Assembly (NCBI GenBank): GCA_913057195.1
Contig: CAJXNL010000002.1
Coordinates: forward strand, 108,307 to 172,306
Reading direction: 5' to 3'
Length of the DNA stretch: 64,000 nt
DNA from: an uncultured Wenzhouxiangella sp.
GTDB lineage: Bacteria; Pseudomonadota; Gammaproteobacteria; Xanthomonadales; Wenzhouxiangellaceae
In this document: positions 38,616-41,039 of the stretch, in pieces
Numbering within the stretch: the stretch's first letter is position 1
How the letters are laid out: the number at the start of each line of letters is the position of its first letter
Program-made: the position numbers and the translations under genes
The notes under the pieces: model-generated
Databases searched by the model: none
What the model was told of the DNA's origin: nothing
The model's input: only the letters and a program-made list of their open reading frames with translations

Positions 38616-41039
38616 ATGAAAGGGAGCCAACCTTTGCGAATCATTCTATTCACAATAGGACTAATCTTAAGTGTGTCAGCACACGCGGACTCCCCATGGA
38701 CTTTCACCGATGAATATAGCATCCCATTAGCTGAGGGTGCACGTGAACGCCTGCAAACAGACTACTACGAGCTTGGCCAATGGAACGTGCTCACTGGCAT
38801 GACAAAAGAGAAACATGGCGAATGGATTTATGGTGGCAAAGTCAATGGCCCCGGGACCTACAATATAGACGCCCACAAAGCGGGTGTGGGAGACTTTAAC
38901 GGTGATTCCGCGCAGGACATGTTGATCAATTGGACTATTTTTCCCAACCTGAGTAGCCGCGCACCTGTAGCGCCCTCGGTACTGATCAATCGAGATGGGG
39001 AGCTAGAACTTTCATCAGAAATCTGGGCCACCGAACCACCATCCAGAATGGTCTCATACAAAGTTGGCGTCGCAGACTTCAATCTTGATGGTAGCGATGA
39101 TGTAGTGCTCGGTTCTTTTGGTATCGGTGAGGAGCTCCCAGACGGAACAGAGAATTGGGTCCCCGAGCGTATTTCTCTGTTAATCAGTGAGAATGGCCAG
39201 CTTGCTGATTATTCAGATCAGATTGAAGGACAGGAAAACTCTCCACTGGCGAGTTTTGGCTTCGCCCATGATCTGGCCGTTGGAGATGTAAATGGGGACG
39301 GGAATCAAGATTTTTACCAAGGTAGGCATCTATTCATTGGTGACGGAACCGGTCGATTTACATTCAGGGATGATCTTGCTCCCGTGGAGGCCGGTATAGG
39401 CGTGCATAGCTCTTGGGCAATGTCCAGCGCTATTGGTGACTTGGACAACGACGGAGTTGATGATCTGGTGATTGGTCTTGCTGACGGTCAGCCACCTGAA
39501 GTGGCGCTCAGCGGGTGGATTTTCTTAAGTGATGGCGCGAATGATCTCTCCAACGCGAGAAAAATTCCTTTGCCTGACGGCCGTTATGGACTTCTGAATA
39601 CCAAGCACAATAGCATGGAAATTGCGGATGTGACTGGTAACGGATGGAACGACATTTTAATCGGCCAGACCAAAGCGGACCCTTATTATGAGGGTCGCCA
39701 ACTCCAACTACTGGCAAACAAAGGCGGTGGTGTCTTCGTCGATGAAACAGATCTTCGCTTATCCGAAGGAATTAGACTGAATGCCCACGGAGAGGGAATC
39801 ACATTCATCATGGACATCAATGGAGATGGCTATGTGGACATTGTTGATTCCGCAGGGGCGGGGCCAAAAGATGTTGGGCTTCTTGTAAACAATGGGCTGG
39901 GTTTTTTCGAACGAATACCGATGACGGAGCTGCCGATCGTACAGAATTACCATTTCGAGGGGCTAGAGGACTGGGAGGGTTTTGATTATGGAACTTCTCA
40001 AACTCTACAGATCTATCCCATCGATCTAGATGGAGATGGCATTGCTTCATTCGTAGTTCAAGTCAATGTACCCGCTGAATTTGCGCCAAATGATGGAGAC
40101 TACGACTTAACCCGACTGTACACTATCAGGCCGACTATGCCATTTAAGCCGGTTGCCAATCAGGAGCCCCAAGTCCCAGAAATACTCGGCGCTCTGTCAG
40201 GAAGTTGGTTTGACCCAACACGAAATGGTGAGGGCTTTGTACTTGACTTTAGCAAAAATCTCAGCGGCCCAGTGGCGACGGTTTATTGGTTTACTCACCG
40301 CAATGGGAAACCCTATTGGCTGATCGGCACCACTGAATACGACTCCGATGAGTTCTACGCCAGCGGACTTCTGAAATTCGATCTCTTCGAGGTCTCTGGG
40401 ACAGGCTTTGGAGATGAGTTTGATGCCAATGAGCTACGGCAAACCCTGCGCGGATCAATCAGTTTTCTCTTTAATGGATGTGACCACGCAGTCGCTTCAT
40501 GGGAAGCAGAAAACAGCTCTGATTTTTTTGAGTCTCCGACGCTGGCATATGACCTTGAGAGGATCACGCTTGGTCTGGACGGCGTACCATGCAGATCTGA
40601 TTCTGTTAGCCAACAAAGCAAGAAAGATAGGCGGCAGAGCATGGCTGGTGTATTGTCGGGTAGTTGGTACGACCCGGCCCGTGACGGAGAAGGTCTTGTC
40701 TTTGAATTCGCACAGAACAATAGCGGCCCTATTGCAACTGGATACTGGTTTACACATCGCGATGGTCAGCCGTATTGGATGATCGGAACGTCCGAATATG
40801 AAAGGGAAGAAAATGCCCTAGATCTGGAGTTTTTAGAGGTATCCGGAACAGGCTTTGGTGATAACTTTGACCCTAGCGCGGTTCGAACAAAGCCTTGGGG
40901 TCACGGCTCGTTTAGTTTCATTAACTGTTCTAATGCATTGGCAGGATGGAAGGCACTAAATGGCGAGGAGGGGGAACTCTCACTGAAGCGAATCACTCTT
41001 AGTCTGGATGGGGTTGAGTGTGAATCAGAATCAGAGTAG
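38616..41039 (+). CDS. Secreted FG-GAP/VCBS repeat protein with duplicated C-terminal domain
   Basis: An 807-residue protein with a signal peptide (cleavage near SAHADSP, residue 25). Residues about 85-480 hold a string of calcium-binding-type loops (DFNGDSAQD, DFNLDGSDD, DVNGDGNQD, DLDNDGVDD, DINGDGYVD, DLDGDGIAS) typical of FG-GAP/VCBS beta-propellers. The last 280 residues hold two copies of another unit, starting LSGSWFDPTRNGEG (about 525) and LSGSWYDPARDGEG (about 678). Each has YWFTHR(N/D)G(K/Q)PYW, GT(T/S)EY and FEVSGTGFGD-like blocks and ends LSLDGV.C. I do not know a name for this unit. Base composition and codon choice are AT-richer than the neighbours, suggesting acquisition. It may be extracellular or surface-bound; the ligand is unknown. 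Confidence 0.85.
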   Translation: MKGSQPLRIILFTIGLILSVSAHADSPWTFTDEYSIPLAEGARERLQTDYYELGQWNVLTGMTKEKHGEWIYGGKVNGPGTYNIDAHKAGVGDFNGDSAQDMLINWTIFPNLSSRAPVAPSVLINRDGELELSSEIWATEPPSRMVSYKVGVADFNLDGSDDVVLGSFGIGEELPDGTENWVPERISLLISENGQLADYSDQIEGQENSPLASFGFAHDLAVGDVNGDGNQDFYQGRHLFIGDGTGRFTFRDDLAPVEAGIGVHSSWAMSSAIGDLDNDGVDDLVIGLADGQPPEVALSGWIFLSDGANDLSNARKIPLPDGRYGLLNTKHNSMEIADVTGNGWNDILIGQTKADPYYEGRQLQLLANKGGGVFVDETDLRLSEGIRLNAHGEGITFIMDINGDGYVDIVDSAGAGPKDVGLLVNNGLGFFERIPMTELPIVQNYHFEGLEDWEGFDYGTSQTLQIYPIDLDGDGIASFVVQVNVPAEFAPNDGDYDLTRLYTIRPTMPFKPVANQEPQVPEILGALSGSWFDPTRNGEGFVLDFSKNLSGPVATVYWFTHRNGKPYWLIGTTEYDSDEFYASGLLKFDLFEVSGTGFGDEFDANELRQTLRGSISFLFNGCDHAVASWEAENSSDFFESPTLAYDLERITLGLDGVPCRSDSVSQQSKKDRRQSMAGVLSGSWYDPARDGEGLVFEFAQNNSGPIATGYWFTHRDGQPYWMIGTSEYEREENALDLEFLEVSGTGFGDNFDPSAVRTKPWGHGSFSFINCSNALAGWKALNGEEGELSLKRITLSLDGVECESESE

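Follow-up and report, generated by a model that had tools for sequence, protein, structure and literature searches.

The window, a 64,000-nucleotide stretch of contig CAJXNL010000002.1 from an uncultured Wenzhouxiangella sp., contains an intact open reading frame on the forward strand (38616-41039) that encodes an exported protein of 807 amino acids (aa). The N-terminal signal peptide of this protein is evident by eye (MKGSQPLRIILFTIGLILSVSAHA, followed by D), in agreement with the first-pass annotation, which had described a secreted protein in which a calcium-binding propeller is fused to a duplicated C-terminal domain, and which had proposed a profile search, a structure prediction and a survey of the proteins carrying the domain. 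Genes for an M13 peptidase and an alkaline phosphatase flank the open reading frame on one side and a DUF427 gene on the other; as all three lie on the opposite strand, no operon is evident. The features of the gene, in which the repeated domain is referred to as the module, are as follows.

38616..41039, + strand: gene for the 807-aa exported protein, comprising signal peptide, FG-GAP propeller, module, linker and module (open reading frame, Pfam)
38616..38687, + strand: predicted signal peptide, aa 1-24, with the boundary ...VSAHA/D (read from the sequence)
38688..40130, + strand: FG-GAP beta-propeller region, approximately aa 25-505 (Pfam FG-GAP_3, motifs)
40188..40592, + strand: module unit 1, aa 525-659, 135 residues; key residues Trp aa 531, Arg aa 649 and Cys aa 622 and 659 (BLASTP, genome placement, AlphaFold2)
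40593..40646, + strand: charged 18-residue linker RSDSVSQQSKKDRRQSMA between the units (translation)
40647..41021, + strand: module unit 2, aa 678-802, 125 residues; Cys aa 771 and 802 (BLASTP, genome placement)
41022..41039, + strand: five-residue tail ESESE and stop codon (translation)

The propeller region matches the Pfam model FG-GAP_3 with an E-value of 3.3e-23 (82.5 bits, against a curated cut-off of 26.9) and contains six calcium-loop-like motifs of the D-x-[NDT] type (aa 93, 154, 224, 275, 338 and 400), which bears out the proposed fusion to a propeller, calcium binding being putative and read from the loop motifs. FG-GAP repeats and calcium-loop motifs are shared with the FG-GAP propellers of integrin alpha, to which remote matches were obtained (E 0.0017). 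In contrast to those proteins, the window propeller is bacterial and lacks a close relative in 42 other genomes of the family at an E-value of 1e-30, the only matches to 38688-40130 being two paralogues within the window genome.

The two C-terminal units share 51% identity and 66% similarity (BLASTP, E 2e-48), a value that excludes chance likeness, and the repeat described in the first-pass annotation is real. The motifs quoted for it, SGSW(F/Y)DP(T/A)R(N/D)GEG, YWFTHRxGxPYW and SGTGFGD(E/N)FD, are present in the translation, while the C-terminal motif given as LSLDGVxC is in place with the exact form L(G/S)LDGVxC, unit 1 having LGLDGVPC. The start proposed for the repeat, 40180, is out of frame and approximately 8 bases too early, with unit 1 beginning at 40188.

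The cysteines noted in the repeat behave as a pair across the family. Exactly two cysteines are found in 122 of 138 modules, and of the two conserved cysteines, 121 modules have both, 7 have neither and 10 have one (Fisher p 1e-6, with kinship ignored), the double losses being spread over seven different proteins. Cysteines that are kept or lost together imply a disulfide, and this pattern provides strong evidence, at the level of sequence, that the two conserved residues form one. A disulfide would also fit the export of the carrier proteins.

Neither unit matches a Pfam or NCBIfam model at E-values up to 10, and no model of either database reaches its cut-off on 25 diverse members of the family, so that no confident hit to a named domain contradicts the earlier statement that the module lacks an established name. 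The weak matches among the 25 members were to CBM_56 in two of them and to ATP-synt_Z, Cupin_5 and an NCBIfam flavodoxin model in one each, those to CBM_56, ATP-synt_Z and Cupin_5 all lying below the curated Pfam cut-offs when inspected. The module has no sequence relative in the PDB, and six of its motif strings have no occurrence in a search of 5.39 million open-access papers. The designed beta-trefoil ThreeFoil appeared as a PDB profile hit (E 7.5e-4), but this value adds up three weak repeat matches, none of which passes alone, and the hit was rejected. Membership of CBM56 (PF22184) was also rejected, on partial matches of 17 and 15.8 bits against a cut-off of 27; two carriers gave CBM_56 scores of 20.1 and 20.3 bits against the same cut-off. 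The likeness to CBM56 is limited to a short local stretch of conserved glycine- and aromatic-rich sequence, but the match spans approximately 24 of the 75 profile positions and stays under the curated cut-off.

The suggestion that the module is beta-structured agrees with the structures predicted using AlphaFold2. Unit 1, modelled with 25 relatives, is predicted with high confidence to be all beta, with eight strands (E5-8, E16-24, E27-38, E41-50, E61-70, E84-95, E100-107 and E118-125) and one helix (pLDDT 90.0, pTM 0.83), and a canonical 122-residue member, modelled from 138 sequences, likewise has eight strands (pLDDT 96.5, pTM 0.87), the first of which is closely followed by a helical turn of three residues (10-12). 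A lipocalin-type protein was the top match for both models in Foldseek searches of the PDB. The nearest solved folds to the canonical member reached a probability of 1.00 with a best E-value of only 4.5e-3, and included nitrophorin 2 (TM 0.56, probability 1.00, E 4.5e-3, rmsd 6.0), the amine-binding protein 4hfo (TM 0.55) and redesigned eight-stranded barrels (TM 0.53-0.62). The module is thus predicted, in two separate members, to fold as an eight-stranded antiparallel meander barrel, as in the calycins (lipocalins, avidins and fatty-acid binding proteins). Because no Foldseek E-value for either model was below 0.001 and the best TM for window unit 1 was 0.47, we term this predicted fold calycin-like, a label that carries no claim of lipocalin homology.

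Calycins have a signature in which a Trp on the first strand is stacked with an Arg or Lys on the last strand (PMC2954199). The module recalls this signature in having an aromatic residue within a first-strand G-x-W motif, with W at the expected site in 115 of the 138 modules and Y or F in the others, and in having R or K at the expected last-strand site, also in 115 of 138; the co-occurrence of Trp with Arg/Lys across these modules is weak (p 0.027). The short 3-10 helix that caps calycin barrels has a candidate counterpart in the helical turn of the canonical model. Export and the probable disulfide are further likenesses. The module differs from calycins, however, in being a mobile accessory unit that is often found in tandem and in lacking a lipocalin or avidin profile match, and its predicted model lacks the C-terminal helix of lipocalins. 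The lipocalin profile PF00061 gave no match to 25 members at E-values up to 1 or to ten members at E-values up to 10, and homology to avidins was rejected on an hhalign probability of 3.1% over 22 columns for streptavidin (a query checked against the PDB), the similarity comprising nothing beyond a G-x-W-Y-N motif. The family appears to be undescribed, with a known type of fold and no named family.

The predicted fold raises the possibility that the module is a lipocalin-like cup which carries, on behalf of its partner protein, a hydrophobic molecule or a cofactor, since the structures closest to it are binders of the lipocalin type and designed barrels that bind ligands. With the Pfam lipocalin model matching no member scanned, and with a set of unrelated cargoes that would all need one small ligand, we consider this reading very improbable.

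Carriers of the module were surveyed in a set of 97 proteins drawn from the best-scoring matches, and the proportions given here describe that sample. A signal-peptide-like stretch is present in 88 of the 97, several of the remainder being fragments. The module is N-terminal, directly behind the signal peptide, in 39 carriers and C-terminal in 54, where the last cysteine is often the end of the protein, and 56 carriers contain two or more modules. Its partners extend from M14, S8 (subtilases), M12-type reprolysin, M36, S41 and M10 peptidases to MauG peroxidases and a beta-lactamase fold, and further to Kelch, NHL, FG-GAP, cyclophilin and DUF1800, with M14 carboxypeptidases representing 8 of the first 36 carriers scanned. 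Because these partners have unrelated activities, the module is non-catalytic by association. Our computations establish that it is exported and mobile, having shifted, either singly or in tandem, from one terminus to the other among exported proteins that are unrelated. A C-terminal sorting signal (type IX CTD, GlyGly-CTERM and the like) was rejected as an identity, since copies at the N-terminus exist.

In being non-catalytic, modular, single or repeated, and shuffled among unrelated exported enzymes, the module resembles the accessory modules of secreted bacterial enzymes, such as carbohydrate-binding modules. It differs from modules of the carbohydrate-binding type in occurring at either end of its carriers, in matching no such named family at the curated cut-off and in having partners that share no substrate class. 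These comparisons bear on a role in substrate targeting, in which the module, like a carbohydrate-binding module, would bring enzymes to particulate food such as cell walls, polysaccharides or protein aggregates. Peptidases make up many of the carriers, the family alignment has many conserved aromatic positions (W7, W31, F/Y32, Y34, W42, F66, F70 and W80) and partial CBM_56 matches exist, but these matches are confined to approximately 24 residues under the curated cut-off, and MauG, cyclophilin and Kelch partners have no common substrate; on balance, we regard substrate targeting as possible but somewhat unlikely.

A further arrangement is found in the contig 16 protein of the window genome (L006:223-3236), in which the module heads a repeat-rich, possibly beta-helical protein encoded directly downstream of a TonB-dependent receptor gene. 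Module-headed, repeat-rich proteins following a TonB-dependent receptor gene recur at no fewer than a dozen related loci (L009-L016, L019, L026 and L037-L041), across the genus and beyond, and the two products possibly constitute a receptor/surface-protein pair.

The module was detected in 56 of 61 related genomes, with up to 54 matches per genome, and the five named loci obtained by a strict-pattern scan of contigs belong to Wenzhouxiangella and Lysobacterales. Six sampled genomes from family f2 of the order had no module. The window genome has four copies in three proteins (the window protein, a contig 9 paralogue and the contig 16 protein). This genome (G000; 1.78 Mb, 98.9% complete) is small beside most of its relatives, and its 4 modules compare with 5 to 22 in near-complete genomes of the same genus. 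In a class-wide sample of 369 genomes, at least six matched (the window genome, one more of the same order and four outside the order), and in a phylum-wide sample of 399 genomes, at least three matched, all from the order; counts outside the order are lower bounds, as the initial scoring took in a limited number of candidates. On these lower-bound counts, the module is rare outside the order.

Spread by phages or plasmids was rejected, the canonical member matching none of 72,556 plasmid records, no relative of the window pair being found in viral contigs and the single phage record being doubtful. This record (PP438435.1, labelled Dolichospermum phage Dfl-JY45) contains two adjacent module genes with exported products (L116:4874-6804), with a module match in XAI97177 (E 7e-29) and a more distant one in XAI97176 (E 6e-12, hhalign probability 96.7%). 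The module-bearing stretch may be bacterial DNA in the record. An integrase-like gene is present among hypothetical genes near the two module genes. A protein related to XAI97176 and annotated as hypothetical is encoded on a Diaphorobacter plasmid (NZ_CP049906.1, L118:2941-3801), and a single-sequence search of the class with XAI97176 added just one genome. Relatives of Burkholderiales type include WP_166071759.1 and XAI97176.1. It is likely that a broader superfamily extends to other Pseudomonadota.

First and second copies tend to fall into separate lineages in a tree of 138 modules including 46 tandem pairs, with 20 label changes compared with a null mean of 32.8 and minimum of 22 (2000 within-pair swaps), in a tree that few columns support and in which many forks are open. 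This separation suggests that two modules were transferred together, as an old cassette, from protein to protein and from one end to the other. The window pair has a separate history: units 1 and 2 form a four-member clade (support 100) with the contig 9 copy and a module from another species (L008), which indicates that the pair is, as judged from the sequences, a recent and local duplication distinct from the ancient tandem lineages. The module has moved within this clade, since the contig 9 paralogue (L004:7-2028), whose propeller is 66-68% identical to that of the window protein (66% over 495 residues), has one N-terminal module compared with two C-terminal modules in the window protein, and the L008 module is attached to an unrelated protein that lacks FG-GAP.

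The tandem lineages also bear on whether the module is an export or stability domain, aiding folding, resistance to proteolysis or passage through type II secretion with no outside ligand. Varied cargo fits a role in folding, stability or export too, the carriers are exported, a compact barrel with a probable disulfide would suit such a role, and the type II secretin GspD is present in 60 of the 61 related genomes, including that of the window. However, GspD is also present in the module-free genomes G037, G048, G056 and G057, so this co-occurrence does not discriminate, and the separate, ancient lineages of the tandem copies point to distinct roles and not to a simple tag. We consider an export or stability domain an unlikely explanation, less so than a small-ligand binder.

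Our main reading, with a probability of approximately 0.5, is that the two units are copies of an unnamed module of approximately 125 residues, a disulfide-latched, eight-stranded calycin-like barrel, by which, without catalysis, cargo is retained at one common location, most likely the cell surface or matrix. The module would bind, through the barrel or its conserved aromatic loops, and keep its cargo at that place, most likely on the producer's own surface or matrix, and tandem copies would add avidity. For the window protein, this would mean that a calcium-stabilised FG-GAP propeller is kept there by its two modules. A common location is favoured over a common substrate because the cargo is so varied. 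A hint comes from a study of one Wenzhouxiangella strain that reports no excreted proteolytic activity, and whose authors infer for that strain, with no link to the module, that the exoproteases are anchored at the outer membrane (PMC7691419). More tentatively, the calycin-like barrel might provide Lysobacterales, together with a few further Gammaproteobacteria, with a universal tag for surface retention that functions from either end and often takes the form of an ancient cassette of two barrels with separate roles.

Beyond the view taken in the first-pass annotation, these results show how large the family is and how the module moves from one end to the other among unrelated proteins, and they add the predicted barrel fold and the ancient tandem cassette. 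The module reaches 54 copies per genome and is attached to many exoenzymes of one order, yet neither Pfam nor NCBIfam has an entry for it; a name would allow one end of many exported proteins now called 'hypothetical' to be annotated. Here a predicted calycin-like fold serves as an accessory module that is shuffled among proteins and repeated in tandem. Should its role be retention, the module would account for the way in which these proteolytic, partly bacteria-eating organisms retain enzymes on the cell, and would offer a compact, position-independent tag.
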